Shown here: in pieces, positions 1,789 through 31,279 of the stretch | Layout of the letters: each line of letters starts with the position of its first letter | Position numbering within the stretch: position 1 is the first letter of the stretch | From: Hadesarchaea archaeon | GTDB taxonomy: Archaea; Hadarchaeota; Hadarchaeia; Hadarchaeales; JAGGTB01 | Reading direction: 5' to 3' | NCBI GenBank assembly: GCA_021163965.1 | Contig: JAGGTB010000012.1 | Coordinates: 1 to 35,182, forward strand | DNA length: 35,182 nucleotides | Program-made: the position numbers and the translations under genes | Notes under the pieces: model-generated | What the model saw: the letters and a program-made list of their open reading frames with translations, nothing else | What the model was told of the DNA's origin: nothing | The model's database searches: none

Positions 1789-1792
1789 GGTT

Positions 1793-2008: not shown

Positions 2009-2166
2009 CGCTCGACCTGTTTCGGTTTTACGAAAAAGTCAGCCCTCGGTTCTTCATGAACTCCGGCGTTAATCTTGCTTTCCAACCCTCCCCGCGCCGT
2101 ATAGGGCATTTGTTTCCCGAAGCCGTTCGAGAACGGCTAAGAGCTTTCATTTGCAACGAAGTCTCC

Positions 2167-2491
2167 CTACCCCTCCACAGAGATCCCGGTCTCCACCGCC
2201 TCCCTCACGATGGTGACCTGCTTCTTGAGCCTCTCGAACTCCTCCGGGGTATAGCAGAGAAAGTCGACGAGGTAGTTAGAGTCCCAGTATCTGTAAGTTT
2301 CGGAAACCCTTTGGAAGAAATCCTTCCCCTCGTACCGCGGGGAGACGACTATCAAATCTATATCGCTGTCCTCGCGTGCCTTCCCCAGCAGCCCTGCTCC
2401 CGAACAGTATCACGCGGTCGACCCTCATCGCGCGGCCAATTTTTCTCCTGAATTGCCTGACTACATCCATTATATTCTCTTCCGAACCCAT
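2167..2491 (-). pseudogene. MNT-type minimal nucleotidyltransferase interrupted by one frameshift
   Basis: ORF 2276-2491 gives MGSEENIMDVVRQFRRKIGRAMRVDRVILFGSRA; the shifted frame (ORF 2167-2355 and upstream) gives LGKAREDSDIDLIVVSPRYEGKDFFQRVSETYRYWDSNYLVDFLCYTPEEFERLKKQVTIVREAVETGISVEG. Joined, they restore GSRAxGKAREDSDIDLIVVS. Confidence 0.85.
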
Positions 2492-2508
2492 CTCAGGATC
2501 TCCTCCGT

Positions 2509-3285: not shown

Positions 3286-3420
3286 CTCCACCGACTTTAC
3301 TGAACCCTCGGAGGAAAAAAGTCTATCTGGCCAGCGAGAATCGGTACGTCGTCGGCCAGATCTGGCTTCCCCCCTCGTAAACGGGTGGCGCAATAGCGCA
3401 CGATCGCCGAGGGGGGTTAA

Positions 3421-11685: not shown

Positions 11686-13266
11686 CTAATCGGAGATTAT
11701 TTCCACGTTAAAATGTTGCGTCATTGGGTATTTCACGTTTTTTACGTTTAAACACAGCTCTAGAGTGTAGTTTCCGGGTTCTATGTTTAATGTCTCTAAT
11801 TCTACCTCGGCGCTTGAGGTTGACTGCCGAAGAATGCTCCCAAAATTGAGTTCCCCGGAAAGAACTTTCAATTTTGGCAGAGTGGATATGACCCTGCCTA
11901 CAACTTCTTCAGCTATGCTACTCCCAACATTCTCAAGAGTTAGATTTATCCGCGCCTTTTCGTCTGTTTCAAATTGCTTCTCCATTAACTCCGCTTTAGT
12001 TAACATTGGACAGGGCCCAGTAATTACGTCTTTTAGGAATAAACTTTGAAACACGTGCCTGTCCAATGACACAAGGATTGTGGAAATTCGTCTTTTTAGA
12101 TCGTTAGCAACACCAATTGACTGCCCAGCAGTGTTGGCTAATTGCTCGTCTGACATCTCTAGGATATCCACTAGCCTCTTGTCCAACAGAGGGGCTAGAG
12201 AGGCACAATCTATTTTGACTGATAGGAATAACTCAGCTTTTCTTTTCCATTCATAAACTTCGAGCATGGAAATTCCAGTTAATTCAGCCAGAGTCAGCGC
12301 ATCTGCTGAGGCCAAATCCTCCACATTGACGATATCGTGTTCTGCCAACTTCCCAGCATAAACGTCGCCAATTCCCTGTATGTTCGTTACCGGAAGGGAA
12401 GAAAGAGGATTGGGAAAGAAAAAAGTTTCCAAAAAAGGTTCATAGTCTACTCTCCCCTCAGCAGGGTTATCTTTATTATCGTAAATTTTGGCCTCGATTT
12501 CGGATCGGTCAACCGTCCCCCAGTAGTTATTGGGTGCTTTGATATCTTGTGCAGAAGAACCGCCAATGCTTTTCGCACAATTGTAGAAGTTATAACCCGA
12601 GTTACCGCAGATATTGTTGTATTCTATAACTATCCCGGAAGTATCTCCCCAAATTTCGAAAGCCCTGTACGGTATATTTGTTATCACGTTTTTTATTACA
12701 ACGTTGCCATCGTTTGGCCAACCCGCTATAAAAATGCCTCGGTACACTTTTGAAATTAAATTATTTACTATTCTGTTATTCCTCGCTTGGGATATGTGAA
12801 TGCCATAAGTCCACGCCTTCTCACTTGAAATGATATTGTTCTCAATCGTGTTGTTTGCAGCTATTTGAGTCAAAAGGATGCCCGATGAGTGGTTGTGCAA
12901 TATGATGTTGTCTGAGATGATGGTGTCCCTAGCACCAGCTAGGTGAATCCCATTGGGATACGTAGTACTACTTCCCCTGCCCCCAATTATTGTGAATCCA
13001 CTAATTTTTGCCCCTCTTGTTTTGATGTGGAATACGTCTGTATGTTGGTTATTTGCCTTTACTGTCGTGACCCCTGCTCCAGCTCCTTCTAGACACACCG
13101 GTTTAGAGATTTTTACGTTTTCACTATAAGTTCCGGCCGCCACTTTTATAGTATCCCCTGCGCCAGCACTATCGATGGCCTTTTGGATCTTACTATATGG
13201 ATGTTTTTCACTTCCATCTTCAATACTCGATGCTTTCTCGATGTCTACATAAATTGTTGTCACCAT
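11686..13266 (-). CDS. Right-handed parallel beta-helix (NosD-like) protein with internal HhH segment and C-terminal CARDB-like region
   Basis: IQKAIDSAGAGDTIKVAAGTYSENVKISKPVCLEGAGAGVT; repeated NN/N-rich rungs; IQGIGDVYAGKLAEHDIVNVEDLASADALTLAELTGIS; no signal peptide (in-frame TAA 12 nt upstream of ATG). Confidence 0.85.
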   Translation of the reverse strand: MVTTIYVDIEKASSIEDGSEKHPYSKIQKAIDSAGAGDTIKVAAGTYSENVKISKPVCLEGAGAGVTTVKANNQHTDVFHIKTRGAKISGFTIIGGRGSSTTYPNGIHLAGARDTIISDNIILHNHSSGILLTQIAANNTIENNIISSEKAWTYGIHISQARNNRIVNNLISKVYRGIFIAGWPNDGNVVIKNVITNIPYRAFEIWGDTSGIVIEYNNICGNSGYNFYNCAKSIGGSSAQDIKAPNNYWGTVDRSEIEAKIYDNKDNPAEGRVDYEPFLETFFFPNPLSSLPVTNIQGIGDVYAGKLAEHDIVNVEDLASADALTLAELTGISMLEVYEWKRKAELFLSVKIDCASLAPLLDKRLVDILEMSDEQLANTAGQSIGVANDLKRRISTILVSLDRHVFQSLFLKDVITGPCPMLTKAELMEKQFETDEKARINLTLENVGSSIAEEVVGRVISTLPKLKVLSGELNFGSILRQSTSSAEVELETLNIEPGNYTLELCLNVKNVKYPMTQHFNVEIISD

Positions 13267-14185: not shown

Positions 14186-14980
14186 CTACAGTTCCCACCT
14201 TTCATGAAGAGGTGGCACGCTCGCGACCAAGTTCTTCGTGTACGGGTGTTTCGGGCTGAAGATGACCTTCCTGACCGGCCCTTGCTCAATTATCTCTCCT
14301 TTCTTCATTATTGCTATCCTGTCGCCAATGTAATACGCCTGCGCCAAGTCGTGCGTTATGAACAGCACCGACATTTTCGCCACCTTCTTCAACCGCAAGA
14401 GTTCATTCAGTACCGCGACGCGAGTTGAAGCATCTATCATGCTCGTCGGCTCGTCCGCTACCAACAGACTCGGGCGAATGATCAAAGATCTCGCGATGAG
14501 CAATCGCTGCATCTGTCCTCCGCTCAGCTGGTGGGGGTATCTTCCCAAGATCTCATCTGGGTTCATACCTATTGTTTCCAGGGTGGACCTAATGATTTTC
14601 TTCCTTTCCTCCTTGGAAGGAGAGTTTTCGAGAAGATCAAACGCGTCGTTCAGGGGCTTGTCAACATTATAGAAGAAATTGAAGGAAGAGTAGGGATCCT
14701 GAAATACGGCCTGCACCTTTCTCCAGTAAGCTTTTTTATCGTATGAAAAGGCATCCTTGCCATCGAGCAGGATCTTGCCGCTTGTCGGCTTGATGAGCCT
14801 CAAAATCATGTTGCCCACAGTGGTCTTGCCGCTACCGCTCTCCCCCACTAGACAGAATATCTCGCCCTTCTTTATGTCAAATGACACATTTTTTGCCCCT
14901 ACCACCTCGGTGGTCCGGATGTAACCCGAAGTGTATAACTTCGTCAAATTTTTGACCCTTACAACCGCATCCCCCTTCAT
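14186..14980 (-). CDS. Oligopeptide/oligosaccharide ABC transporter ATP-binding protein (OppF-type)
   Basis: GESGSGKTT Walker A, LSGGQMQRLLIARSL signature, LLVADEPTSMID Walker B. Confidence 0.95.
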   Translation of the reverse strand: MKGDAVVRVKNLTKLYTSGYIRTTEVVGAKNVSFDIKKGEIFCLVGESGSGKTTVGNMILRLIKPTSGKILLDGKDAFSYDKKAYWRKVQAVFQDPYSSFNFFYNVDKPLNDAFDLLENSPSKEERKKIIRSTLETIGMNPDEILGRYPHQLSGGQMQRLLIARSLIIRPSLLVADEPTSMIDASTRVAVLNELLRLKKVAKMSVLFITHDLAQAYYIGDRIAIMKKGEIIEQGPVRKVIFSPKHPYTKNLVASVPPLHERWEL

Positions 14981-14986
14981 TTCGAC

Positions 14987-16039
14987 TCACCTCCGCTCGA
15001 GATGGCGCTTAACTCTTTTACCCTTCTCCCCGATTTTAGTGTAGAGCCAACACTTAACGATCCTACCATCTTTCTCCACCTCTGGGGGTTCCTTGCGCGT
15101 ACATATCTCCATGCATTGGTCGCACCGCGGGTGAAACCTGCACCCAGGCGGGGGATTTCTAAGATCGGGAACCACCCCCGATATACTCGACAGCTCCTTG
15201 TCCTTCGTTTCCGGTTCGAGAGGAAGCAGAGAATCCATCAGCATTCGGGTATAGGGGTGGAAAGGGTTATTTATGACCTCGTCCACCCTTCCGTCCTCCA
15301 CGAAGACTCCGGCGTACATTATTACTATCCGGTCGCAAAGTTGGTTCAGAGCGGCTAGGTCGTGGGATATACATATGAGACTTTTTATTATCCCCTCCCT
15401 CTGTATGTCTATCATGAGTTTTATCATCCGTTTCTGGGAAGTCACATCAAGGGCCGAAGTTGGCTCATCCGTAATCAAAAGTTTTGGAGACCCCAGCGTC
15501 GATATCGCCGTTATAACCCTTTGCGCCATGCCTCCACTAAGCTCGTGTGGATAGACGTCGAGAACATACCCATCTAAACCCAACCTTTCGAAGTGCTCAA
15601 TCGCCATTTCGCGAACTTCATCAATGGAGTATTTTCGACCGGTCCGCTCTCTCATCATGTCCGCAATAAACTCCCTAACTCTTTTGGTAGGATTTAGAGA
15701 ATTTAACATGGCCTGAGGCACGTATGACATAAGTTTGCATTTAACCTCTTTCCTCATTTTTTCGGGGGAAATCTTCCAGATATCGTAACCGTAGACCTTG
15801 ACTTGACCGCCCTCATAGTGCAACAGGGGCGTTGTGGTACCGGTGATGAGCTGCGCGAAGCTGGATTTCCCGCAACCGGATTCACCAGCAATGCCAACCC
15901 TCTCACCCTCATCCACTTTGAGTGAAACACCATCTACTGCATGAACTACGCCAAACGTCCCCCTGTAGTAGCCTTTGAGGTTTTTCACCACCAGTGCGTT
16001 TTTATCCATTTTTTTCGCTCCCCCTTTCTCGTAAATCAA
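14987..16039 (-). CDS. Oligopeptide/oligosaccharide ABC transporter ATP-binding protein (OppD-type)
   Basis: GESGCGKSS, ELSGGMAQRVITAIS, LLITDEPTSALD; C-terminal PPGCRFHPRCDQCMEICTRKEPP oligopeptide-ABC motif. Confidence 0.96.
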   Translation of the reverse strand: MIYEKGGAKKMDKNALVVKNLKGYYRGTFGVVHAVDGVSLKVDEGERVGIAGESGCGKSSFAQLITGTTTPLLHYEGGQVKVYGYDIWKISPEKMRKEVKCKLMSYVPQAMLNSLNPTKRVREFIADMMRERTGRKYSIDEVREMAIEHFERLGLDGYVLDVYPHELSGGMAQRVITAISTLGSPKLLITDEPTSALDVTSQKRMIKLMIDIQREGIIKSLICISHDLAALNQLCDRIVIMYAGVFVEDGRVDEVINNPFHPYTRMLMDSLLPLEPETKDKELSSISGVVPDLRNPPPGCRFHPRCDQCMEICTRKEPPEVEKDGRIVKCWLYTKIGEKGKRVKRHLERR

Positions 16040-16061: not shown

Positions 16062-16916
16062 TCACTCCGTCCGCAACTTGGGATTCAGCACATCGTCTAT
16101 AACCGCGGTAATCATGAGGAGGGTTCCAGTGAACATTACCAAAATGACCCCCGGAGGGATGAAATACCACCACGCTCCTATTGAATGAGTTTCCCAAGAA
16201 ACGGCCCACTCAAGCATCTTCCCTAGGGTGAAAGCCGTGGTCGGCCCCAAACCTATCATACTTATAGATGCCTCCACCACCACGGCGGAGCTGATGCCTA
16301 TAATGAGGCATAAAAAGATGTATGCTAGCATATTCGGCAAAATCTCTTTTGCCACTATTGAAAAATCGCCTTTTCCTGAAATTCTGGCTAAATCCACGAA
16401 GTTTCTTTCCCTCAAACTTAGGAGTTGAGATCTTATGGACCTAGCCATCCAAGCCCAGTTGAACAATCCTATTAGTATCCCCACCACAAGTAGACTTCTG
16501 CTGTGAAGTACTGAGGCTATGACTATCAGAACAACTAATTGGGGGAGAACCAGAAATATGTTTGTGGTAAGATTTGCCGTTTCATCTACCAATCCGCCCT
16601 TATACGCGAGAAGTCCTCCTATTATGACCCCAATTGTTAGCGCCAGCAACCCAGCGATAACGCCCACAAAGAGCGAGTTACGGATGGCCACACAAACTTG
16701 AGCCAAAACGTCCCTGCCAGCTGTGTCGGTGCCCAACAAAAATTCGGTCGAGGGAGGTTCCCATCTGCGGGCTGTACCGTCTTCTTTCCTTATTATTTCC
16801 CTCGGATCCCGAGTAAAGAAAGGACCTACGATCCCAAACATGGCAATGATAATGACAATTACCGAGCAGACTTGGAATTTCCGATTTCTCGCGAGTAGTT
16901 CAATTCTGCTGGGCAC
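16062..16916 (-). CDS. ABC transporter permease (OppC-type)
   Basis: FLLGTDTAGRDVLAQVCVAIRNSLFVGVIAG and EASISMIGLGPTTAFTLGKML. Confidence 0.95.
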   Translation of the reverse strand: MPSRIELLARNRKFQVCSVIVIIIAMFGIVGPFFTRDPREIIRKEDGTARRWEPPSTEFLLGTDTAGRDVLAQVCVAIRNSLFVGVIAGLLALTIGVIIGGLLAYKGGLVDETANLTTNIFLVLPQLVVLIVIASVLHSRSLLVVGILIGLFNWAWMARSIRSQLLSLRERNFVDLARISGKGDFSIVAKEILPNMLAYIFLCLIIGISSAVVVEASISMIGLGPTTAFTLGKMLEWAVSWETHSIGAWWYFIPPGVILVMFTGTLLMITAVIDDVLNPKLRTE

Positions 16917-16918: not shown

Positions 16919-18187
16919 CTAACCACCCACATAGCCCGTTCTGATACGGGGATCTATGAATCCGTAAATTATATCCATCAAGAAGTTACCGATTAATACC
17001 ACAACCACCGTAATCACGAAAAGGCCCTCCAGCAGTGGGTAATCTAAGTTTCTTGCGGCCCCCAATGCTAGAGTTCCCAGTCCCGGCCACCCGAAGACAA
17101 TTTCCACTAGCATAGTCTGCCCTATGAGGCTCGAGAGGATTATCGGGAGCCCGGTGACTTGGGGCAGAATAGCGTTCCTCTGCGCGTACTTCCTTAATTT
17201 GCCCTCCCCAAAGCCCATTTGCCTTGCGTAGTATACGTAGTCCGATTGCCTCTCGTAGATCGTCATCGCTCTCATCCCCGTGCACCAGTTGCCTATGCCG
17301 GAAATGAAAAGGGATAGGAAAGGCAGGGCATAATGATACGCCGCATCCGAGATAAATCTAAGGCTCAGAGAAGGTGTCAAACCCGGAGTATAAGCCCTAG
17401 CGGTGGGGAACCATCCAAGTTTGACGGCAAAAACAAACACTAAAATTAGGGCAAACCAATAATAGGGCGCCGAATTCAGATACACTGAAAAAGTATAGTA
17501 GGCGTGGATGAGCTTATTCTTAGAAAATGCTGCCCATGCCCCGAGATAATTGCCTACTATAAACGCGAGTATCCACACTGGGATAACGAGGACTAATGTC
17601 CAACCCAAGCTATCCATAATTAAGTTTGCCACAGATTTAGGATACCGCGAAATTGAGAGGCCAAAATCCATAGTCAGCACTCTTTTCCAAAAGGAATAGT
17701 ACTGTTCGGCTATGGGTTTGTTCAACCCAAATAAATCATAATATTTTTCACGCATTGCTTCCACCTTCTCCGGAGTCATGCCTGGTTGGACCGTTATCTT
17801 ACGTACCGCCACCTCCGCAGGATTTGTGGGCGCAAGACGAGGAATAACGAACAGGAGGGTGTATGCAAGAAAAACTGTGACGAGCAAAAAGAGTATCTTC
17901 TTAGTGAAAAATCTGGCAAACGGCCTTTTAGCAAGTCGCTTTTCAATCGGGGCCACCAGTATTTTGATTCCTCTTGCTATTGATGAGGCAAATATCATCA
18001 GCAAAACAATCATCGCTCCAACTGACCAAATAAAAAGCGCCAGCTCCATCTGGGAAGACGTAGTGGGAGAGGAGTACGTTGGAAGCAAAAGCAGTAATAT
18101 TACTCCTACTATAATCCCTCCTATAATGGGGCCTTTTTTATTCATTTTTCCCGCTCCATTCTTTCTCGTCCCTTTTTTACTACTCAA
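16919..18187 (-). CDS. ABC transporter permease (OppB-type) with extra N-terminal TM segments
   Basis: PRLAPTNPAEVA, YDLFGLNKPIAEQYYSFWKRVLTMDFGLSI, VEIVFGWPGLGTLALGAARNLDYPLLEG. Confidence 0.95.
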   Translation of the reverse strand: MSSKKGTRKNGAGKMNKKGPIIGGIIVGVILLLLLPTYSSPTTSSQMELALFIWSVGAMIVLLMIFASSIARGIKILVAPIEKRLAKRPFARFFTKKILFLLVTVFLAYTLLFVIPRLAPTNPAEVAVRKITVQPGMTPEKVEAMREKYYDLFGLNKPIAEQYYSFWKRVLTMDFGLSISRYPKSVANLIMDSLGWTLVLVIPVWILAFIVGNYLGAWAAFSKNKLIHAYYTFSVYLNSAPYYWFALILVFVFAVKLGWFPTARAYTPGLTPSLSLRFISDAAYHYALPFLSLFISGIGNWCTGMRAMTIYERQSDYVYYARQMGFGEGKLRKYAQRNAILPQVTGLPIILSSLIGQTMLVEIVFGWPGLGTLALGAARNLDYPLLEGLFVITVVVVLIGNFLMDIIYGFIDPRIRTGYVGG

Positions 18188-18392: not shown

Positions 18393-19685
18393 CTATTGTA
18401 GATATTTTTTCTCTATCTCGAAGTCTATCCCGTTCTTTTTTGCTATCTCCCCGTACATATAAGCGCTCTTTCTGGGGATCCTCTCCAAAGTCTTGTAATC
18501 TACTTCCACCAAGCCGAACTTGGGTTCAAATCCCATGGCCCACTCGAAGTTGTCCATGAAACTCCAGTGCATGTAGCCGGTTACATTCGCTCCCTCGTCC
18601 ATCGCCCTTCTGATTTGCTTTAAGTGATTGACTATAAACCTCCTCCTCTGCAAGTCATCGTTGGTTCCTATCCCATTAGAAGTGATCATTATCGGTAGGC
18701 CAAACATTTTATGAACTCTTCTCAAAACCTTGTAGATTCCTTCCGGATACACCCACCAACCCATGTAGTCCCTCTCGCAGTATTTCTTTACCCCAACTTG
18801 GAAGTAGTACCAAGGCGGAGTAGGACGGCTTTCCTCGAAGTAGCATACGTTCCCAGAGAAATAATTGAGACCGAAGAAATCAAGAACGTTCCCGAACTCC
18901 TCTCCGGAAAGCGGAGGTTTAGGTATGCCTTCTTTTAGAGATAGTAACCAAACACCGTTCACTATATAATCTTGTATCTCCGTTGACCACCTATCCAGTG
19001 GAGAATCTGATGCCGGTTCGAGGATATTCACAGCCTTAGCTAGACTTACTTTGCCCTTTGAATGATCGTGAATCGTCTCGTAGGATTTGACATGGGCCTT
19101 TAAGAGGTTAGAGGCCATCTCAAAAACATTTTTAATACTTTTTTCTCGCCGAGGCCATTTGCCGTTTATCAAATATGGCGGGGGCACGTCATCCCGTAGG
19201 CAAGAGCTAAAAGCATACAACATAGGTTCATCTAGAGTCAGCCAGTAGTCGAACTCGAACTCATTCGCCAATTTTCTCACGAACTCTACGAAATAATCAA
19301 CATTTTTTTCTTTGAGCCATCCCCCCTCGTTCATGAACCACAAGGGGTTCGTGTAGTGGTGTAGCATTGGTATGGGTTTGATGCCTTTTTCTTCCATGTA
19401 GTTTATCACGTTTCGGTAGTGCTCGATTTCTTTCTCATCGAATTGTCCCTTTTTGGGCTCTACGCGGCTCCATTCGATGGAAAAACGATAGGCATTGTAA
19501 CCCAATTCCGCCATCAAATCGATGTCCTCTTTATATCTGTTGTAATGATCGCAGGCTACTCCAGATTCCTCCAAATCTGTTTCTTTCTCCCACTTCCACC
19601 ATTGATTGTTCCTGTTGTTTCCTTCCACTTGATGAGCCGAAGTGCTTGTCCCCCACAGAAAACCTTCTGGGAATTTGGCTCGCAT
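18393..19685 (-). CDS. Glycoside hydrolase family 1 protein with altered catalytic residues
   Basis: MRAKFPEGFLWGTSTSAHQVEGNN, AYRFSIEWSRVEP, HHYTNPLWF, WSFMDNFEWAMGFEPKFGLVEVD are GH1 blocks; acid/base block reads TLDEP and nucleophile block reads ITSNG. GGTGA SD just upstream of the chosen ATG. Confidence 0.95.
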   Translation of the reverse strand: MRAKFPEGFLWGTSTSAHQVEGNNRNNQWWKWEKETDLEESGVACDHYNRYKEDIDLMAELGYNAYRFSIEWSRVEPKKGQFDEKEIEHYRNVINYMEEKGIKPIPMLHHYTNPLWFMNEGGWLKEKNVDYFVEFVRKLANEFEFDYWLTLDEPMLYAFSSCLRDDVPPPYLINGKWPRREKSIKNVFEMASNLLKAHVKSYETIHDHSKGKVSLAKAVNILEPASDSPLDRWSTEIQDYIVNGVWLLSLKEGIPKPPLSGEEFGNVLDFFGLNYFSGNVCYFEESRPTPPWYYFQVGVKKYCERDYMGWWVYPEGIYKVLRRVHKMFGLPIMITSNGIGTNDDLQRRRFIVNHLKQIRRAMDEGANVTGYMHWSFMDNFEWAMGFEPKFGLVEVDYKTLERIPRKSAYMYGEIAKKNGIDFEIEKKYLQ

Positions 19686-19848: not shown

Positions 19849-20580
19849 ATGCCAATCAAAGTCTTAATCACAAAGAACTACGATGAGCTCAGCGAGAAAG
19901 CGGCGAAAATCATCGCGGATGCAATAAGGAACAAGCCCAACTTGGTTCTGGGTTTAGCTACAGGGGGGACTCCAGTAGGCTGTTATCGAGAACTCGTCCG
20001 CATGCACAAGGAGAAGAAACTTGATTTCTCGAGAGTTGTAACTTTCAACCTCGACGAGTACATCGGGTTGCCGCCAACCCATCCACAGAGCTACAGATAT
20101 TTCATGAACGAGAACCTCTTCAATCACGTGAACATTAGGATGGAGAACACGCATATTCCAGACGGTATGACGGACGATCCCCAAAAAACTTGTGAAGAGT
20201 TTGAGAAGGCCATCGAAACCGCAGGCGGAATTGACCTTCAACTCTTGGGCATAGGAGCCAACGGCCACATAGCTTTCAACGAGCCTGGTTCACCCTTCAA
20301 CTCCAGAACTAGAGTCGTGGAGATCTCGGAGCAAACGAGGAAGGACAACGCGCGCTTTTTCCAATCCATTGATGAGGTGCCTCGTCAAGCCATCTCCATG
20401 GGCATCGGAACCATCATGGAGGCTAGAAAAATCGTGCTCCTGGCAAGCGGTGCGAGAAAGGCAGATGCCGTCGCCAAGTCCGTCAAGGGGCCAATAACCG
20501 AGGAGGTGCCCGCATCAATTCTCCAAAAACACCCTAACTGCACGTTTATCCTTGATGAAGCAGCGGCATCTAAACTCTAA
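19849..20580 (+). CDS. nagB: Glucosamine-6-phosphate deaminase
   Basis: GLATGGTPVGCYREL, FNLDEYIGLPPTHPQSYRYFM, LGIGANGHIAFNEPGSPFNSRTRVV. Confidence 0.95.
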   Translation: MPIKVLITKNYDELSEKAAKIIADAIRNKPNLVLGLATGGTPVGCYRELVRMHKEKKLDFSRVVTFNLDEYIGLPPTHPQSYRYFMNENLFNHVNIRMENTHIPDGMTDDPQKTCEEFEKAIETAGGIDLQLLGIGANGHIAFNEPGSPFNSRTRVVEISEQTRKDNARFFQSIDEVPRQAISMGIGTIMEARKIVLLASGARKADAVAKSVKGPITEEVPASILQKHPNCTFILDEAAASKL

Positions 20581-20641: not shown

Positions 20642-22651
20642 TTAGCCACCCCTGCGCGCCGCCAAGACTATGCCGATTATCAACACTATTACGACGATCG
20701 CTCCTGCGACCCAATATCCAGTCGGCACCTCTGTCACGGTAGTGGTCTGAGTTTCTGTCTCTGTCACGGTTATTTCCCCTGCAGTTACCGTCGTGGTAGT
20801 GGTCTCAGTTACCGTCTCAGTTACCGTCTCAGTTACCGTCTCAGTAGGAGTAGGCGTAGGCGGTGCCCCCGCTGGTCTAAGACCCAATACTACCTGCGGA
20901 ATGTTGTACTCGTGCCATGTGCACGCTGGTCCGCACCGTCCCGGGTTGTCGACGGTGGGCCATCCCTCCCAGTAGGTTGTCCAGTGTCTTCCCCACGAGA
21001 CTTGGACGTAGAGCGGTATGTACGGAAGCTCTGGGACGAGGTAGGACTGTATCTCCTTGGCCACCTCTATTGACTCTTCGCTACCGATTGGCAACCTCCA
21101 AAGCTCGTCGATCAAATCTTGGACCGTCTCGGCGTTCGGGGATGTCTCTGGGGTGTAACGGGCATAGTTCGTCCCGCCCTCCGCTGTTCCTGTGAATAGG
21201 TTATTGTATGCGTTTATCGGGAACGTGGGGCCCGGTACTCCCGAGTCTATGCAGGCGAAGTCTATCCAGTCGAAGTCCCCTGTCACCGGGATCGACCAGT
21301 AGTCATCCTCAGAAACTATTCTTGGTTCCACCTTTATTCCGATATCTGTAAGGTTCTTTGCTATCAGCTCGGACATCAAGTTAACATCGCTCCAGCCCTC
21401 GCAGGTAACTATCTCCCATGGGCCTATCGGGTGTCCGTCCCAAGTCCAGCCCTCTTCAACGCTTCCCTCGCAGTGTTCCTGCAGGATTTCTATCGCCTTA
21501 TCGGGGTCGTACGGAATCACGACATCGCCATATGTCTCCCTTATCAAATCGTAGTCGATGTATTGGTCGGCCATGGGTCCCGTGGGTGTAATGTACGATG
21601 GATTGGCCCTCGGGACAAGGCCTTCCTGAGCGATGTTACACACGTCATCCATGTTGATTGCGTATGCCACGGCCTGCCTCAGCCAGGGCTCCTTGAGTTC
21701 GGGGTGCTCCTCGCTCGCCAAGTTTGGAACCATGTATATGGCGCCCTGGAAGGGGAAGATATGCCCCTCCGGATCCCACTTGTTCCAAGTTATCACATCC
21801 TCGTGGGTCATGATCCACTTATAGCACCCGGCAAAGAAGCTGTCTGACCAGTCATGGACATTGTTGGCGAAATCCCTCTGCTCCAGGTCGTTGCTCGCGT
21901 ATTCTAGCACCCCAACATATTTCGGATACGTCGGAGGATCAGGAAGACCAAATACGTCGATGCCCCACCAATCATCGATCCTTTCATAGTACGTCTCCCT
22001 TTCCGTTGACTCAACTGCTCGATACGGGCCACAGCCATCCATCTCATCGTAATCCGTGTTCGCGTACGTCGTAATTTGGTCTCCATACTCCGCTATGAGC
22101 GGTTCCCATCTTGCCTTGGAAACAATCGGCATGTCGACCAGTCCGGCTGTTACCCTGTTGGTAAACTCTTGGCCTTCCACGACATTGATGTGTACGGTGC
22201 GCGTATCGGCGGCTTCTATCGAGGCTATCACATCTCTATTTATTGAAAAGTAGGGGTTGTACTGGTCATGCGCCTCGTAGGAGAACACTACATCGTCGGC
22301 GGTCACAGGAGTGCCATCCCGCCACACGGCTTCCGGACGAATCTTGATTATGAACGTCGATCCATCATCAGACCACTCCCCGCTCTCCGCCAACCACGGT
22401 ACCAGCTCTCCGGTAACCGTGTTGTAATAGAACAGGGTCATGTATACGAGACTCAGGCCTCTGTTGAACGTTGCCCATCCGCCAACGTTGAAGGGGTTGA
22501 AGTTCCCGACGCAGTACGACTGATCACCGCCAATATACATTGTTTCCTCTCTCGGATACTCCTGGGCCATAGCACTGCCGACGCCAGCAACCATCATGCT
22601 CACTATCAACACTGAAACACACAGCAAAGCGGCACATTTCCCTTTTTTCAT
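20642..22651 (-). CDS. ABC transporter substrate-binding protein, family 5 (OppA/CbtA-like), with Thr-rich stalk and C-terminal TM anchor
   Basis: Signal peptide; WRDGTPVTADDVVFSYEAH; NMDDVCNIAQEGLVPRANPSYITPTGP; C-terminal PTPTPTETVTETVTETVTETTTTT...GYWVAGAIVVIVLIIGIVLAARRGG; SD AAGGAGG. Confidence 0.93.
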   Translation of the reverse strand: MKKGKCAALLCVSVLIVSMMVAGVGSAMAQEYPREETMYIGGDQSYCVGNFNPFNVGGWATFNRGLSLVYMTLFYYNTVTGELVPWLAESGEWSDDGSTFIIKIRPEAVWRDGTPVTADDVVFSYEAHDQYNPYFSINRDVIASIEAADTRTVHINVVEGQEFTNRVTAGLVDMPIVSKARWEPLIAEYGDQITTYANTDYDEMDGCGPYRAVESTERETYYERIDDWWGIDVFGLPDPPTYPKYVGVLEYASNDLEQRDFANNVHDWSDSFFAGCYKWIMTHEDVITWNKWDPEGHIFPFQGAIYMVPNLASEEHPELKEPWLRQAVAYAINMDDVCNIAQEGLVPRANPSYITPTGPMADQYIDYDLIRETYGDVVIPYDPDKAIEILQEHCEGSVEEGWTWDGHPIGPWEIVTCEGWSDVNLMSELIAKNLTDIGIKVEPRIVSEDDYWSIPVTGDFDWIDFACIDSGVPGPTFPINAYNNLFTGTAEGGTNYARYTPETSPNAETVQDLIDELWRLPIGSEESIEVAKEIQSYLVPELPYIPLYVQVSWGRHWTTYWEGWPTVDNPGRCGPACTWHEYNIPQVVLGLRPAGAPPTPTPTETVTETVTETVTETTTTTVTAGEITVTETETQTTTVTEVPTGYWVAGAIVVIVLIIGIVLAARRGG
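20802..20845. repeat. 12-bp tandem repeat (GTCTCAGTTACC, 3 perfect copies plus partial) encoding the TETV stalk
   Basis: Direct reading: gtctcagttacc at 20802, 20814, 20826, then gtctcagta. Confidence 0.9.
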
Positions 22652-22834: not shown

Positions 22835-23572
22835 ATGGTCTCGGCACTGGTGGAAATGAAAAACATCCACAAGTGGTTTGGGAGCGTTCATGCGTTGAAA
22901 GGCGTTGATTTTTACGTGAACCCCTCCGAAATTGTGGGGCTGGTGGGAGATAACGGCGCTGGAAAAAGTACACTGATTAAAATCTTGACGGGGGTTATTC
23001 CGGCGGATAAAGGAGAAATATACTTTAATGGAAAAAAAATCAGCTTCTCCTCGCCAAGGGAGGCCAGAGATAATGGGATTGAAACGATATATCAGGAGCA
23101 AGCACTGGCAGATGACCTGAGCGTAACGAGAAACATGTTTTTGGGGAAAGAGATTCAAAAATCCATAGGCCCCATAAAACTTCTCGATCATAAAAAAATG
23201 AAAAAAGAAAGCGAGAGGATATTGAGCGAGCTCGGGTTGAAGATACCATCCATGGACCAGGAAGTTAGGTTTTGCTCCGGGGGTGAAAGAGAAGGAATAG
23301 CGATAGCAAGAGCGATGTATTTCAAGGCCAAGCTCGTCATACTGGATGAGCCGACGAGGGCCTTGGGAGTCGCTGCAGTTCGGCGGGTATTGAGTCTCGT
23401 GAAGGAACTGAAAAGCAGGGGGATTGCAAGTGTTTTTATAAGCCACAATCTTCACCATGTGTACTCCATTGCAGACAGGATTGTAGTTCTTGTCCGAGGA
23501 GAGAAAGTAGAGGATATACCGAAAAAAGAAACTTCAATAAGAGAACTCACCAAGCTCATTATTAGAAGATAA
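22835..23572 (+). CDS. Sugar ABC transporter ATP-binding protein, single domain (FrcA/RbsA-like)
   Basis: GDNGAGKSTLIKILTG, FCSGGEREGIAIARAMYFKAKLVILDEPTRALGVAAVRRVL, VFISHNLHHVYSIADRIVVL. Confidence 0.94.
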   Translation: MVSALVEMKNIHKWFGSVHALKGVDFYVNPSEIVGLVGDNGAGKSTLIKILTGVIPADKGEIYFNGKKISFSSPREARDNGIETIYQEQALADDLSVTRNMFLGKEIQKSIGPIKLLDHKKMKKESERILSELGLKIPSMDQEVRFCSGGEREGIAIARAMYFKAKLVILDEPTRALGVAAVRRVLSLVKELKSRGIASVFISHNLHHVYSIADRIVVLVRGEKVEDIPKKETSIRELTKLIIRR

Positions 23573-23676
23573 CTAGCAGTTCTTTGCCCAGCTAATTTTA
23601 AACCATCAATTTTTTCACTTCGCTTTCGATCGCTCCGCAAAAGTTAAAAGAGTAGCTCGCCCATAAAGGAGACGCT

Positions 23677-24882
23677 ATGTTGAGAGGTAATTTGGTAGTA
23701 GGCCAGTCGGGCGGCCCGACTAGCGTAATCAACAATAGTTTATGCGGTATTATTCGGGAGGCAAAAAAACATAGAGAAATAAAGGAAATATATGGGATGC
23801 GTTTCGGCATCGAGGGGTTTATGAGTGAAAATATTATCGACCTCCGACGTGAGGAAGAAGGAACCATTGAGGGGCTACGGGATACTCCTTCCTCCGCTTT
23901 GGGGTCATCCCGTCACAAACTTAGGGACGATGATCTCCCCAGAATTTTGGAAGTACTCAAAAAATTTGATATTAGATATTTTTTAATGATTGGCGGCAAC
24001 GACACGATGAATACGCTTCACAGAGTTGAAAAATATTGCGCTAAAGAGGGATACGATATCGTTTGTGTCGGCATACCCAAAACCGTGGATAACGACCTTT
24101 TCGGTACAGATCACACCCCCGGCTTCCCAACGGCGGCAAGATTTGTAGCTCTTTCGGTCAAACAGGGGGGGATTTTGGCTAGAGACATGCAAAAGGTGGA
24201 TCAGTTTGTCATTTATCAATCGATCGGCAGAGATGCTGGTTGGCTCGCTGCCTCGGCGGCCGTTGCTAAAGAAAAAGAATCGGATGCCCCTCACCTCATT
24301 CTCCTTCCTGAAAGACCGCTGAATAAAGGGAGATTTCTAGAAGAAGTTGAAAAGTGTTACAATAAATACGGTTATGTATCCATAGTATGCGGCGAAGGAA
24401 TCACTTGGGAGGACGGATCCCCCGTTTCGGGCTCTGTAATCAGGGATAAATTCGGCAACATCGAGTTTGGGGCGATGGGTGGAACCTCTGCAGCTATGGT
24501 CTTACACAGGATAATCAGCTCTGAATTCGGCTGGCGCGGGGAATTTCAGATCCCGGAGTCCCTGCCTATGTGCTGCGCGGATAGAATGGTGGGGATAGAT
24601 CGGGACGAAGCTTATCTGGTCGGTGCGCAAGGGGTGAAATTGGCTGTCGAAGGAGAATCGGGCGTAATGGTCACCCTGGAAAGGAAGAGCAATCGTCCTT
24701 ACCTATGCGAAACGGGAACAATTGGTGTGGAAGAAGTAGCAGAGAAAAGCAAACCGATGCCGGACGATTACATTTCCGATGATGGATTTTTCGTGACGAG
24801 CGAATTTATGGAATATATAAGGCCTTTGGTCGGGGAAATGCCTCGCTATGCTGAGCTGAAGGCCGAAGCAGTAATAAAGTGA
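23677..24882 (+). CDS. 6-phosphofructokinase (PfkA superfamily), predicted PPi-dependent
   Basis: GQSGGPTSVINNSLCG, MIGGNDTMNT, GIPKTVDNDLFGTDHTPGFPTAAR, QSIGRDAGWLAA; SD AAAGGAG. Confidence 0.93.
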   Translation: MLRGNLVVGQSGGPTSVINNSLCGIIREAKKHREIKEIYGMRFGIEGFMSENIIDLRREEEGTIEGLRDTPSSALGSSRHKLRDDDLPRILEVLKKFDIRYFLMIGGNDTMNTLHRVEKYCAKEGYDIVCVGIPKTVDNDLFGTDHTPGFPTAARFVALSVKQGGILARDMQKVDQFVIYQSIGRDAGWLAASAAVAKEKESDAPHLILLPERPLNKGRFLEEVEKCYNKYGYVSIVCGEGITWEDGSPVSGSVIRDKFGNIEFGAMGGTSAAMVLHRIISSEFGWRGEFQIPESLPMCCADRMVGIDRDEAYLVGAQGVKLAVEGESGVMVTLERKSNRPYLCETGTIGVEEVAEKSKPMPDDYISDDGFFVTSEFMEYIRPLVGEMPRYAELKAEAVIK

Positions 24883-24898
24883 ATAGAAGAAAGAATGC

Positions 24899-25852
24899 AT
24901 GATGTCAGACTATCTCGTTGAAATAGGAGACACGTTAGACAAACTGATAAACAAAAGAGAAAATTGCCGAGTGGTCATCAAAAGATTGGGGGCCGAGGTA
25001 ATCAGTTACAGAGTGCGGGATGGTCAAAGAACGCTTCCCTTGCTGTGGAACGATGGCAACGATTTTCCTCCCCCGAGAGGGGGATGGAAAAGTCACGCTA
25101 CGGTCATCTTTCCCCACGTCGGGGGGCTCAAAAACAACGAAAGTTGGCTCGGCGATATAAAAATTACCAGCCCGGGCAACCATGGTTTTGCCCGCCACTC
25201 GACCTTCCAGGTAGTCGACCACGGCAGTGACAATGGTGCATACATCCGATATCGCCTCGAGGCAAACGACAAGACGAGGAGATACTATCCTTTCAATTTC
25301 AGGCTGGATGTTGTTTATGCCCTAAAGGGAAAGGAACTTTCCGCCGAGTTTGAGGTCACCAATCTAGAGGAAGAGAAAGACATATTTTTCTCTCTGGGCT
25401 GGCACCCCGGATTCAGCACGTCCTTCCCAGACTGCGGAGGTAAAAAGGAGGACTGGCGGATAATTTTCCAGAAGGGGAGATATCGGCGCTATTTCAACAA
25501 CGAGGAATGTAGGTTAACTGGCGAAACCAAAGATTTGGATATCGATGGTCCTCTCGGATGGACCGAAGAAGAACTCGAAGGTACGATTATGTTGGAGATA
25601 GAAAAAAGGGAACTTCGCACTTGTAAATTTTACAATCCTAAAATTAAAAGGGGAGTGGAAATTGATTTCGAAGATTTCCCCTTCCTTGCAATTTGGTCGG
25701 AAGTTGGCCGCGAGTTCATTTGTCTGGAACCTTGCCAAGGACTCGACGATCACGAAATACAGGAAAGTTTTGATCAAAAGGTGGGCATCGTGAACCTCGG
25801 CGCTTCGATGAGTAAAAAATGGCAGGCTACCGTTAGGCCTATACTTTCTTGA
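24899..25852 (+). CDS. Aldose 1-epimerase-like protein
   Basis: FPHVGGLKNN, PGNHGFARHSTFQV, FFSLGWHPGFSTSF, EVGREFICLEPCQGLDD. Confidence 0.85.
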   Translation: MMSDYLVEIGDTLDKLINKRENCRVVIKRLGAEVISYRVRDGQRTLPLLWNDGNDFPPPRGGWKSHATVIFPHVGGLKNNESWLGDIKITSPGNHGFARHSTFQVVDHGSDNGAYIRYRLEANDKTRRYYPFNFRLDVVYALKGKELSAEFEVTNLEEEKDIFFSLGWHPGFSTSFPDCGGKKEDWRIIFQKGRYRRYFNNEECRLTGETKDLDIDGPLGWTEEELEGTIMLEIEKRELRTCKFYNPKIKRGVEIDFEDFPFLAIWSEVGREFICLEPCQGLDDHEIQESFDQKVGIVNLGASMSKKWQATVRPILS

Positions 25853-26036
25853 AAACGAGGGGGTCCTCTGTAGCCCGGATCCCCATTCGTTATAGTTAAA
25901 TACTTTTCTACATACATGTCGAGCTGGCAAATAAACAATCATTAAAAATAATCAAGGGGTGCCAGCTAAGGAGGTGTAAAACTGACAACCGTACGCTGTT
26001 GGGACAGGAACCGATCTCAATAGTGGAGGGATTTAC

Positions 26037-27038
26037 GTGATTATTCCGGCCCGAATTAAGCGTATCCCCAGCAAAATTTTGAGTTACCGATCATTTAGCG
26101 TATCTGTAATTCTGGTCGGGATGATCATAGGATTTTGGGCAATCACGCCCGAGCATAAGTTTATTTCATCTCCCGTTATTGACATTTTTCTGACAGTATC
26201 GCCCATGATAACCATAGTTACAATAGCTATGGCGTTGCTCTTAATTTCCGGTGAATTTGACCTTTCGGTGGGTTCGATTTATGCGCTTGCCAGCGCGATC
26301 GTGGCCATCTTGTACACAAATCATGGTGTAAATCCGGTCATAGCGGTAATCATCGCTTTAACTCTCGCTGGTGTTTTGGGTGGTTTTATAAATGGAATAG
26401 TTGTGACCAAACTGAGAATATCCTCACTTATAGCAACATTGGCCACGATGTGGATATATCGAGGAGCAACACTTCTTATTACCGAGGAAGGGCGTGAAAT
26501 ACCCTATTACCCTGGAAAGATGTTCCCAACTTTCGAAAAATTTTTCTGCGGCAAAATTTTGGGAGGACTCCCCGTCCAATTTCTGTGGCTAATAGTAATT
26601 GCTATACTTCTATGGATATTGCTCGAGCATACTAAGTTCGGCAATTGGATATTTGCTACCGGAAGCAACAAGGAGTCAGCGCGGATGATGGGGATAAACA
26701 CGGACAGGGTAAAGATAATTTGTTTTATACTAGTAGGATTTTTGGCAGCATTTGCAGGGATCATACAAACAACCCGAATTCACATAGCGGCTCCTTGGAC
26801 AGCACAAACGATGAACCTTGAGGCGATCGCCGGAGCTGTTGTGGGAGGAACCTTGCTCACCGGAGGCGTCGGATCTATTCTAGGTGCAGTACTTGGAGCG
26901 TTTAGTCTCCGGGTTCTGAGTCTAGGCCTCGTTATGATGGGCCTCTCTCCATACGTCTACATGGTAGCCACCGGCGTACTGCTAATTTTGGCCGTGGCTT
27001 TCAACGAGTTGGTGAGACGGTGGATGTCACACAGATAG
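26037..27038 (+). CDS. Sugar ABC transporter permease (RbsC-like)
   Basis: GTG start preceded by GGAGGG; LLISGEFDLSVGSIYALASAIVA, FINGIVVTKLRISSLIATLATM, GSNKESARMMGINTDRVKIICFILVGFLAAFAGI. Confidence 0.95.
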   Translation: MIIPARIKRIPSKILSYRSFSVSVILVGMIIGFWAITPEHKFISSPVIDIFLTVSPMITIVTIAMALLLISGEFDLSVGSIYALASAIVAILYTNHGVNPVIAVIIALTLAGVLGGFINGIVVTKLRISSLIATLATMWIYRGATLLITEEGREIPYYPGKMFPTFEKFFCGKILGGLPVQFLWLIVIAILLWILLEHTKFGNWIFATGSNKESARMMGINTDRVKIICFILVGFLAAFAGIIQTTRIHIAAPWTAQTMNLEAIAGAVVGGTLLTGGVGSILGAVLGAFSLRVLSLGLVMMGLSPYVYMVATGVLLILAVAFNELVRRWMSHR

Positions 27039-27091
27039 CTAAAAAATTTTGAAGAGCACTACTTACAGCCAATTCTAAGCACACATTTCAT

Positions 27092-27111
27092 CCCATCTTA
27101 GAGGTGATGGG
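27092..27111 (+). terminator. Hairpin downstream of RbsC-like gene
   Basis: CCCATC-TTAGAGGT-GATGGG followed by CTCTTTT. Confidence 0.4.
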
Positions 27112-27190
27112 CTCTTTTAAACGCGTAGTTTTTGACATTTGGAGGCAAGCATCCTTGGCCAGACTCACCTAATTTCTGTTAACCTCGCCT

Positions 27191-28102
27191 TCACTCCCGT
27201 AGCTCCACCTCGATTTCCATCAAATCGTGGGCGAGAATCAAATTTGGAAAAATCTTCTTGGCTCGCTCTAAAAATTTCGACGTGTCCAGATATCGGGGGC
27301 TCACGTGGAAAAGTATCAACTTGCGAACTCCTGCTTCTCTCGCGATCTCGGCGGCAAGCCTCGGAGTTGAGTGACCGCTCTCGAGGGCGCGATCCTCGAG
27401 GTCGTCGCCAAGCGTTGCCTCGTGAATCAAAATGTCTGCCCCTCGAGCCAGCTCGACTACTTTTTTCGACGGTCTCGTGTCGCTTACGTACACCACCTTG
27501 CGCCCAGGCCTGGGTGGCCCCATTACTTGCTCAGGTCTCACCGTCCTACCATCCTGCAATCTGACCTCTTTGCCCGCCTGTAGCCTCGAGAAATCCGGGC
27601 CCAGTTTGACTCCCAGCTTCTCGGCCCTTTCGGGGTAAAATCTGCCCGGGCGTTCCTTCTCGATCAAAGCGTACCCGATTACCGGGACATCGTGATCCAG
27701 CTCGCACGTACCGATCCAGTATCCATCCCGGCTGAGTTTTTGGCCAGGTTCTAGCTCGTGGAGTTCGATTTCAAAAGTTTGCGTGTACAGAGGGATTCGA
27801 AGAAGGGATCCAATCTTTTCTTTAGTGCCGGGGGGTCCGTAGATCTGCAACTTTCTCTCTCTGCGCATAAGCGACATAGTTTGTACCAGTCCTGGAAGGC
27901 CGAGAAAGTGATCGCCGTGGAAGTGCGTGATGAAAACGGCATCGAGTTTCAACGGACTCAGACCGGCACGGACCATTTGGCGTTGGGTTCCCTCGCCACA
28001 ATCGAAAAGTAAGGTCTCGCCACCCCTCCTGATCGCCACGGCTGGCAGACCCCTCTCAGCTGTCGGCATGCTTCCACCGGTTCCGAGGAAGATTATCCTC
28101 AT
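27191..28102 (-). CDS. rnz: Ribonuclease Z
   Basis: IIFLGTGGSMPTAERGLPAVAIRRGGETLLFDCGEGTQRQM, FITHFHGDHFLGLPGL. Confidence 0.97.
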   Translation of the reverse strand: MRIIFLGTGGSMPTAERGLPAVAIRRGGETLLFDCGEGTQRQMVRAGLSPLKLDAVFITHFHGDHFLGLPGLVQTMSLMRRERKLQIYGPPGTKEKIGSLLRIPLYTQTFEIELHELEPGQKLSRDGYWIGTCELDHDVPVIGYALIEKERPGRFYPERAEKLGVKLGPDFSRLQAGKEVRLQDGRTVRPEQVMGPPRPGRKVVYVSDTRPSKKVVELARGADILIHEATLGDDLEDRALESGHSTPRLAAEIAREAGVRKLILFHVSPRYLDTSKFLERAKKIFPNLILAHDLMEIEVELRE

Positions 28103-28111
28103 TGACCCCCC

Positions 28112-29149
28112 TCACAGGAACCTCTTTTTCCTGAGCACATAGATGTTCCGAACCAACGACTTGTGAACGCGCTGGCTGTGTTTTTCCACCAACTTAAACC
28201 CAACGTCCTCTGCGAAATCCTCCAAGGCGATTCCGGAGGGAGAAGTAATACACATGTGGCGGCCTGGCTTCAGCGCCCGAACGAGACTTGGAAGCGCTTG
28301 CTCGTAAATTCTCGGAAGTTCCAGCCCCCTTGTGCTTACCTGCCTCCCATACGGAGGGTCCGTTGCTATCGCATCCACCTCCTCCTCGAGCTCGAGTTGT
28401 CTGGCATCGCCCAGAAGGAGCTCATAATCCTTAACCCCGAATTGTTTCAGATTCTTCTCCGCGCCCTCGAGCGATTTCGGGTCGATGTCCACGCCCACAG
28501 CTCTAGCTCCAATTAATCCGGCTTCGAGAAGAATGCCACCGACGCCGACAAACGGATCTAACACAACACCACCTCTGGGGGTTCGAGCCAAGTTCACCAT
28601 GCACCTAGCTAGCTTTGGCTTGATGGTTCCCGGGTGAAATACCGCGCGGTGCTTCGGCTCCCTCCGTCTGAACTGGCTGGTATCGATGCTTGCCTCTTTT
28701 ATTCCAACCGCGCACTTATCCCCCGTGAGCACAGCGAGCATCTCCACATCTGGCGAAGAGAGATCGACTTTGAAATCCACTTCGCTTCTTATGAGGTCAG
28801 CTATTTTTCGCGCGAGTTCTCCGACATCGATTTCTGGTGAATAGCGCTTTACGCGCTTAACCCTGACTGCAAAGCTCTTCCCGTGTGGAATAATATCCAC
28901 TAAGTCCGAACTTCCCACCGCATCCGGAACCTCGCTGACGAGAGCGGTGCAGATGTGCTCCCCTATCCACTGAGTCATCGCAAGCCTCTTGGCGAGAATC
29001 TGAGGGTCAGCCTTCGTCTCGAGGATTAGAACTTGGTCGAGCTCCTCATCCACTTTATATACTCTGTGTTCGGCTTCTATCGCTCCAAACACTTCAGCCG
29101 CGGGCAGGCTTGGGTGCTCCCCCGACAGAAGAAACATGAGCCTCCTCAT
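28112..29149 (-). CDS. tRNA (guanine10-N2)-methyltransferase (Trm-G10 / Trm11 family; THUMP + Rossmann MTase)
   Basis: GVVLDPFVGVGGILLEAGLIGARAVGVDIDPKSLEGA, IATDPPYGRQVST. Confidence 0.92.
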   Translation of the reverse strand: MRRLMFLLSGEHPSLPAAEVFGAIEAEHRVYKVDEELDQVLILETKADPQILAKRLAMTQWIGEHICTALVSEVPDAVGSSDLVDIIPHGKSFAVRVKRVKRYSPEIDVGELARKIADLIRSEVDFKVDLSSPDVEMLAVLTGDKCAVGIKEASIDTSQFRRREPKHRAVFHPGTIKPKLARCMVNLARTPRGGVVLDPFVGVGGILLEAGLIGARAVGVDIDPKSLEGAEKNLKQFGVKDYELLLGDARQLELEEEVDAIATDPPYGRQVSTRGLELPRIYEQALPSLVRALKPGRHMCITSPSGIALEDFAEDVGFKLVEKHSQRVHKSLVRNIYVLRKKRFL

Positions 29150-29157
29150 TAAAACCC

Positions 29158-30024
29158 CTAGCGAAGCGCATCCGCGATGAGTGGTGCCACGGTGATCCTG
29201 CTAATCTCTCGCTCGATAGTGTCGGTGGCAAAAACCTCCTCTGCTCCCGCTCTTCTAATTTTTTCCAAAGCATCGCCAACCAAGACAGCATGCGTACAGG
29301 CAACATAGATCTTCCCCGCCCCTTGCTTCCGCAGGATCTTGGAGGCCTCAACTATCGTGCCTCCTGTGCTTATTATGTCATCGACCAGTACTGCGTCTCT
29401 CCCCCTGACGTTGAGTCTTTTCGGCTCCATCTTCACCTTAGTTGGTGTCTCTCGATGTTTCACAAGATAATCAAAATCGGCTTGGAGTTCGCCCGCCACG
29501 CATTCAGCATGATGCAGGGCCCCTTGATCTGGGGCCAAAACGACGGGGTCTCTAAGCTCAAATCTTCTTAGGTACTTCCCCACTAGTGGCATTGCGGTGA
29601 GGTTTCTAGCTGGAATCTTGAAAGACTCCATCGCCTTATCACTGTGTACGTCGACGGTGACGAATTCATCGGCGCCAGCGCCCTCCAGTAAGACTCGGAC
29701 AGTCTGGGCGCTCACGACTTCTCCCGGCTCAAAGCGCTTGTCCTGCCTAGCGTATCCCAAGTACGGAACAACCGCTGAAACCCTCTCGGCCCCTAGGTCT
29801 TTAGCGACGTGAAGGAGGAAAAAGAGCTCCATGAAGTTGTCATTCTGCGGCTGGCAAGTAGACTGAACTACCGCCACAGCTTCTCCCTTGAGCTCTTGTG
29901 GAACCCGCACGTAGAGTTCTCCATCTGGAAAGCGCTTGAGTTCCGGTCTCACAAGCTCGCACCCAAGTTCGGCCGCAACCCGCTCGGAGAGATTTCTGGA
30001 TGCTGACCCGGCTACAACCAGCAT
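29158..30024 (-). CDS. prs: Ribose-phosphate pyrophosphokinase
   Basis: KRFPDGELYVRVP, PYLGYARQDKRFEPGE, VDVHSDKAMESF, AVLVDDIISTGGTIVEA PRPP-binding loop. Confidence 0.96.
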   Translation of the reverse strand: MLVVAGSASRNLSERVAAELGCELVRPELKRFPDGELYVRVPQELKGEAVAVVQSTCQPQNDNFMELFFLLHVAKDLGAERVSAVVPYLGYARQDKRFEPGEVVSAQTVRVLLEGAGADEFVTVDVHSDKAMESFKIPARNLTAMPLVGKYLRRFELRDPVVLAPDQGALHHAECVAGELQADFDYLVKHRETPTKVKMEPKRLNVRGRDAVLVDDIISTGGTIVEASKILRKQGAGKIYVACTHAVLVGDALEKIRRAGAEEVFATDTIEREISRITVAPLIADALR

Positions 30025-30079
30025 CTGAAACACCTGAATTCCTTTAGAAGTTGACGGTAAAAACATTTAATCGAGGAAA

Positions 30080-31171: not shown

Positions 31172-31218
31172 AACCCCGCCGCGATGGAAATTGATAAGGA
31201 AAAGCATGATGAGCTCGC

Positions 31219-31231
31219 AATCTTTAAATAG
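31219..31231 (+). promoter_or_regulatory. TATA-box-like promoter element upstream of sugar-binding protein
   Basis: CAATCTTTAAATAGCG about 55 nt upstream of ATG, followed by SD. Confidence 0.45.
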
Positions 31232-31279
31232 CGTGGAGAAAAAGATAATTCGTAAAAAATACCGAAAAGGAGGAGAAAT

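Follow-up and report, generated by a model that had tools for sequence, protein, structure and literature searches.

A GH1 gene without the family nucleophile

Few enzyme families have been studied as thoroughly as GH1, and its mechanism with two glutamates is regarded as invariable. The gene at 18393-19685 of the window (the whole 35,182-nucleotide stretch of DNA analyzed here) raises the question of what a GH1 protein might do once one of these glutamates is gone. Its 430-aa open reading frame on the minus strand, product P0001, is translated without an internal stop; an alternative TTG start at 19727 would make P0001 longer by 14 aa.

18393..19685, minus strand: GH1-fold protein P0001 without the GH1 nucleophile (PF00232, 1vff, AlphaFold2, Foldseek)

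By sequence, P0001 belongs to GH1: its match to Pfam Glyco_hydro_1 (PF00232) reaches 300 bits against a cut-off of 22.6, and its score against the NCBIfam GH1 beta-glucosidase equivalog TIGR03356 is 291 bits, below the curated cut-off of 478.5. The nearest solved structure is 1vff, BGPh from Pyrococcus horikoshii (phmmer E 2e-105), which is also the top Foldseek match of the AlphaFold2 model (TM 0.90, E 2e-47, 41% identity). The model, built from 66 aligned sequences, has a mean pLDDT of 92.5 and a pTM of 0.93; confidence falls in two loops (approximately residues 161-180 and 281-300), and the strands bearing the catalytic residues lie well above 90 pLDDT. P0001 is a full-length GH1 protein with a TIM-barrel fold and falls into the BGPh-like group of archaea, and with the acid/base residue retained as well, the preliminary description was right that the rest of the fold is intact. 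No secretion signal was apparent at the N-terminus of P0001 when inspected by eye, so the protein is probably cytosolic.

The replaced residues meet at the sugar C2 position

The acid/base block of P0001 reads WLTLDEP, followed by GLNYF and, at the nucleophile block, ITSNG. All three motifs, and the codon positions 18678-18680, 19230-19232 and 18858-18860 previously assigned to them, proved exact by translation. We aligned P0001 to 145 GH1 relatives from archaeal and bacterial genomes and located the following residues.

18678..18680, minus strand: Ser336 (TCT), GH1 nucleophile position; Glu in 145/145 relatives
19230..19232, minus strand: Asp152, at the C2-OH-contacting Asn position of N-E-P (alignment; role from PMC6522968); Asn in 141, Asp in 3 and Thr in 1 of the 145 relatives
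19227..19229, minus strand: Glu153, acid/base, kept; Glu in 145/145 relatives
18858..18860, minus strand: Phe276, second Tyr of N-Y-Y; Tyr in 145/145 relatives
19353..19355, minus strand: Tyr111, aromatic -1 position; Phe or Trp in 142/145 relatives
19149..19151, minus strand: Arg179, conserved-Pro position; Pro in 138/145 relatives
19629..19631, minus strand: Gln19, C3/C4-OH contact, kept (alignment; role from PMC6522968)
19485-19487, minus strand: Arg67, kept (alignment)
19356-19358, minus strand: His110, kept (alignment; role from PMC6522968)
18864-18866, minus strand: Asn274, kept (alignment)
18564-18566, minus strand: Trp374, kept (alignment)
18543-18545, minus strand: Glu381, kept (alignment; role from PMC6522968)
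18540-18542, minus strand: Trp382, kept (alignment)

A catalytic GH1 protein has its acid/base Glu at the end of beta-4 and its nucleophile Glu in an (I/V)TENG block at the end of beta-7. The first is present in P0001 as Glu153, though the preceding Asn has become Asp; at the second, P0001 has Ser336. In the AlphaFold2 model, Asp152 ends strand 147-152 (beta-4) with Glu153 directly after it, and Ser336 sits within strand 332-338 (beta-7). Changing GAA or GAG to TCT takes three base changes (N to D and Y to F take one each), which rules out a sequencing error at Ser336, as had been argued for a single error. A nucleophile glutamate shifted to a nearby position is likewise ruled out, because the block FGLPIMITSNGIGTNDDLQRRR contains no Glu and aligns to the ITENG of 1vff without a gap (phmmer).

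The second Tyr of N-Y-Y normally hydrogen-bonds the nucleophile, and with Tyr276 changed to Phe the hydroxyl at this partner position is lost. In Sulfolobus GH1, contacts to the sugar come from the nucleophile E387 and N205 at C2-OH, from Q18 and H150 at C3-OH, and from E432 at C6-OH (PMC6522968). By alignment to the GH1 motifs, positions 336 and 152 are the two C2 contacts; both are altered in P0001, and the C3, C4 and C6 contacts are kept. One carboxylate is gone at 336 and another is gained at the neighboring C2 contact 152. Judged from the sequence, the changes amount to a consistent remodeling of a single pocket corner, and we regard it as certain enough that P0001 would be incapable of the Koshland mechanism, the classical chemistry of retaining glycosidases. 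A beta-glucosidase annotation for this gene is unsafe. The two options first proposed, a pseudoenzyme or catalysis of a non-canonical kind, are supported by a GH1 scaffold that lacks the nucleophile and keeps the acid/base residue and the rest of the fold.

Taken together, the catalytic options (C2-assisted, with an external nucleophile, or by another C2-selective route) make a repurposed catalyst of some kind just short of an even chance. In one form of this idea, the carboxylate has moved from beta-7 (Glu to Ser) to beta-4 (Asn to Asp) and the enzyme would cleave C2-substituted (GlcNAc- or GlcN-type) glycosides. Neighboring-group participation or another non-Koshland route would then make P0001 a convergent hexosaminidase on a GH1 scaffold, which is possible though unlikely.

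The changes are local and occur in a singleton

The residues around the rebuilt corner are strongly conserved: E153, Q19, H110, W374, E381 and W382 are identical across 145/145 relatives and P0001, and P0001 keeps 45/51 clade-invariant residues. Two further clade-invariant positions are altered, F111Y, at the aromatic following the invariant His, and P179R; the Arg179 loop contains an insertion relative to 1vff (near residues 163-182) and has low model confidence. As a control, we scored 50 non-redundant archaeal relatives by leave-one-out at a 95% consensus threshold, using 13 catalytic-site columns that we chose from known GH1 contacts. At these columns, each of the 50 relatives shows 0 departures and P0001 shows four (F111Y, N152D, Y276F and E336S). 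Across all conserved columns, P0001 departs at 7/56, and the other relatives depart at 1.2 on average and 9 at most. The catalytic-site enrichment is modest (hypergeometric P about 0.02-0.04 depending on the threshold, with small numbers), and the contrast with 0/50 relatives is the stronger evidence. Since departures are high at the catalytic site and overall within the normal range, the change in P0001 is local, without general decay.

The search for a clade sharing TLDEP and ITSNG covered about 1,600 genomes, mostly of several archaeal phyla, together with species genomes searched by peptide patterns and viral contigs; none was found among the sequences read, which were the best loci per search. 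A plasmid protein search with P0001 returned only matches below 60% identity. P0001 is therefore a singleton among the sequences searched, without a close homologue, and to call its replacements co-varying, as was done at the outset, overstates the case: one sequence carries all of them. SGR_2426 (8kap), considered as a nucleophile-less relative, has a normal TENG block and was rejected. Full-length GH1 matches within the phylum occur in this genome only, among 28 genomes that are mostly small. In the tree, P0001 is a lone branch (length 0.86, flagged as long, with weak support nearby) among archaeal BGPh-like sequences, apart from the second GH1 of its own genome. That second protein (L001, G000:C6:20997-22298) has ITENG and NEP intact, and the genes adjoining it include none homologous to the sugar transporters of the window. 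No shared operon was found around the GH1 relatives.

These comparisons bear on the idea that P0001 is the product of a recently inactivated GH1 gene heading to decay, its changes being neutral after the loss of function. A singleton with changes shared by no relative, in a genome with a second, intact GH1, would fit such a history. However, the open reading frame is intact, most clade-invariant residues are kept, and the changes are concentrated at the catalytic site rather than scattered; three base changes in one codon plus two chemically matched neighbors would also be unlikely so soon after inactivation. We consider decay improbable.

Asp at position 152 recurs in three relatives with TFDEP at the acid/base block (L058, L059 and L062, of family f9, which we read as Thermococcaceae). 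These proteins resemble P0001 in the Asn to Asp change before the acid/base Glu; unlike P0001, they keep ITENG and N-Y-Y, carry R67Q and are placed elsewhere in the tree. Because P0001 branches apart from the TFDEP proteins, its Asp152 probably arose independently.

The gene lies in an Opp-type sugar transport operon

Two permease genes and two Opp-type ATPase genes follow the GH1 gene on its strand, and a binding-protein gene precedes it, beyond the divergent nagB.

16919..18187, minus strand: ABC permease (BPD_transp_1), 205 bp downstream of the GH1 gene
16062..16916, minus strand: ABC permease (BPD_transp_1), by domain match
14987..16039, minus strand: ABC ATPase, OppD type, by domain match
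14186..14980, minus strand: ABC ATPase, OppF type, by domain match
20642..22651, minus strand: solute-binding protein, family 5; nearest solved structures Opp-type 2o7i, 4jsd and 4pfu
19849..20580, plus strand: nagB, glucosamine-6-phosphate deaminase, above the NagB equivalog cut-off

We take 2o7i, 4jsd and 4pfu to be Thermotoga maritima sugar-binding proteins; 4pfu bears the name mannoside-binding protein. The match to 1zty, which binds chitin oligosaccharides, scores far below these Opp-type ones.

Farther along the window (22835-32428), a ribose-type sugar ABC permease, binding protein and ABC ATPase surround an aldose epimerase and a PPi-type phosphofructokinase. Unrelated genes (RNase Z, methyltransferase, PRPP synthase and radical SAM) separate the ribose-type binding protein from its permease. 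Near the window end, a 314-aa open reading frame (34174-35118, minus strand) weakly matches ADP-dependent glucokinase/phosphofructokinase; its counterpart in L158 has 408 aa, so it may be shortened or its start may be wrong. The opposite end holds part of a CRISPR-Cas locus (291-3393), with Cas1 (291-1280, minus strand) and Cas6 (2509-3393, minus strand) and small open reading frames between them. A 526-aa product (11686-13266, minus strand) shows the odd combination of NosD/right-handed beta-helix repeats followed by a helix-hairpin-helix match.

The reading that we favor over any single catalytic alternative is that P0001 is a putative cytosolic sugar-binding pseudo-glycosidase of this transport operon, a tentative assignment somewhat short of an even chance. 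In the proposed scheme, P0001 would have lost the Koshland nucleophile and rebuilt its C2 pocket while keeping the acid/base residue and its grips on the C3, C4 and C6 positions of a beta-glycoside. It would bind an oligosaccharide imported by the co-encoded Opp-type ABC transporter and, not turning it over by double displacement, may serve as a sensor, retention protein or partner. We favor this scheme because the nucleophile and Tyr276 are lost and the sugar contacts Q19, R67, H110, E153, N274, W374, E381 and W382 are kept, because the changes are site-specific in a confidently predicted fold, and because of the permease/ATPase gene order, the Thermotoga-type sugar-binding protein and the Klotho precedent.

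At the nucleophile position, the KL2 domain of Klotho probably carries Ser or some other residue. Like P0001, Klotho KL domains are homologous to GH1. The GH1-like KL2 of beta-Klotho preserves the acid/base residue, Glu693, which contacts a peptide that mimics sugar, and soluble alpha-Klotho is believed to function as a lectin, not as a glycosidase (PMC10628560). Unlike P0001, the Klothos are vertebrate membrane co-receptors with tandem domains. We know of no Klotho-like prokaryotic counterpart in a transport operon, and non-catalytic glycoside hydrolases are, to our knowledge, unusual in such operons. Further points count against a pseudo-glycosidase. A protein that only binds sugar has no need of the acid/base residue and its environment, yet both are fully preserved. 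The pair E336S and N152D maintains the charge close to the -1 site, a hint that the chemistry has been rewired. Among the window genes scanned, moreover, P0001 was the only glycoside hydrolase recognized.

Retention of the acid with loss of the nucleophile/base is also the pattern of inverting phosphorylases. Accordingly, phosphate, another anion or water could fill the Glu336 cavity by Arg67 and Ser336 while Glu153 protonates the leaving group; with phosphate, the product would be an alpha-sugar-1-phosphate, and P0001 would be a phosphorylase of the cytosol that works alongside a disaccharide importer. The retained Arg67 and the transporter operon are in keeping with this. So are engineered nucleophile-less GH1 enzymes that use external donors, the glycosynthase Abg E358S and TnBgl1A E349G with formate, which like P0001 combine a small residue in place of the nucleophile Glu with an intact acid/base (PMC6151457). 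Unlike P0001, they are man-made and need activated donors. The Asn and Tyr partners are not known to be altered in such engineered enzymes; P0001 is a natural counterpart of them with the Tyr partner lost and a new Asp by the acid/base. By alignment, Arg67 and Ser336 could bind an anion, which Asp152 would disfavor. Against an inverting phosphorylase, Asp152 would repel phosphate, and no new basic residue appears among the catalytic-site columns. Furthermore, the inverting phosphorylase families in a 2022 review are GH65, GH94, GH112, GH130, GH149, GH161 and GT108, not GH1 (PMC8950772). We judge an inverting catalyst decidedly unlikely.

The mannoside-binding relative of the binding protein and the adjoining nagB could instead point to a shift in C2 specificity, toward a charged sugar (the 2-amino sugar GlcN) or an epimer (mannose) whose C2 group Asp152 recognizes, with residual non-Koshland hydrolysis. 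The R67Q plus N152D pair of L058, L059 and L062 also speaks for it: alongside ITENG, this pair matches the Pyrococcus beta-mannosidase BmnA, and the three proteins are probably beta-mannosidases of that type. P0001 departs from that pattern, keeping Arg67 and lacking the nucleophile that those proteins keep; such a shift would explain Asp152, but not Ser336 or Phe276. It is the least probable of the readings considered.

The amino-sugar hypothesis and nagB

The preliminary description likened the Asp-Glu pair of P0001 to that of the GH20 beta-N-acetylhexosaminidases and, with nagB as neighbor, proposed 2-acetamido-assisted hydrolysis of GlcNAc-type substrates. Here Asp152 would orient the acetamido group, whose carbonyl attacks C1, with Glu153 as acid/base; the beta-7 nucleophile would be dispensable and its removal would make room. 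As in GH20, where the pair is Asp437-Glu438 and there is no enzyme nucleophile on beta-7 (PMC4752478), Asp-Glu ends beta-4 in the model of P0001. Among polar sugar contacts, moreover, only the two that touch C2-OH have changed (PMC6522968). This is a likeness of layout, not of family membership, since P0001 is GH1 by sequence and fold and GH20 is another family with another sequence. GH20 enzymes also hold the acetamido oxygen with a Tyr, and in P0001 Tyr276 is lost to Phe. Asn to Asp is, besides, found in the GH1 proteins with a normal nucleophile noted above.

The nagB argument has weakened. Six further genomes of the phylum carry nagB at 77-87% identity, and this GH1 is absent from all six. 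In L156, L157 and L159, nagB stands among apparent housekeeping genes (open reading frame starts read by eye); in G014 it adjoins a ROK kinase, and in G012 a phosphofructokinase, an epimerase and an ADP-kinase-like gene are nearby. In the sister genome G021 (L154, G021:C45, 2345-8431), nagB occurs with nagA, a SIS-domain sugar isomerase, a GH42-type enzyme and a polysaccharide deacetylase, by gene content an archaeal amino-sugar cluster, which connects the nagB line, in one relative at least, with the breakdown of amino sugars. On this predicted gene content, nagB is inherited in the lineage and partly linked to amino-sugar use. Its adjacency is weak evidence for the role of the GH1 protein because it is inherited and present in relatives without this GH1.

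We also sought, family by family (PF01979, PIG-L), the deacetylases on which a GlcNAc route would depend. The genome, which is 86% complete, has two PF01979 proteins only, whose sequences look like a dihydroorotase and an enzyme of the adenosine/SAH-deaminase type; nagA-like and PIG-L deacetylases were not found in it, an absence that is not proof. Together with the Thermotoga-type relatives of the operon binding protein, this counts against a GlcNAc role, for which the GH20-like layout and the changed C2 contacts still speak. Substrate-assisted 2-acetamido hydrolysis is, on these grounds, unlikely.

Relation to known GH1 proteins

Among characterized proteins, BGPh (1vff) resembles P0001 in fold, in the HH(F/Y)T and WSFMDN blocks and in the -1 contacts to C3, C4 and C6; it differs in having TFNEP, NYY and ITENG where P0001 has TLDEP, NYF and ITSNG. 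Literature searches returned no natural nucleophile-less GH1 protein outside Klotho, and P0001 would be an example of a pseudo-glycosidase in prokaryotes or else of a mechanism altered within GH1.

Two other unusual GH1 architectures came to light. PDB 8in1, a 994-aa tandem GH1, has TIDDPF at the acid/base block of its first domain, possibly a degenerate GH1 domain. Genomes of group f229 encode GH1 proteins of 660-724 aa (L162, L166 and other open reading frames in L163-L187); the C-terminal part of L162 and L166 resembles a sugar nucleotidyltransferase, with an AGGLGTRLG motif, and these two are apparently GH1-nucleotidyltransferase fusions.
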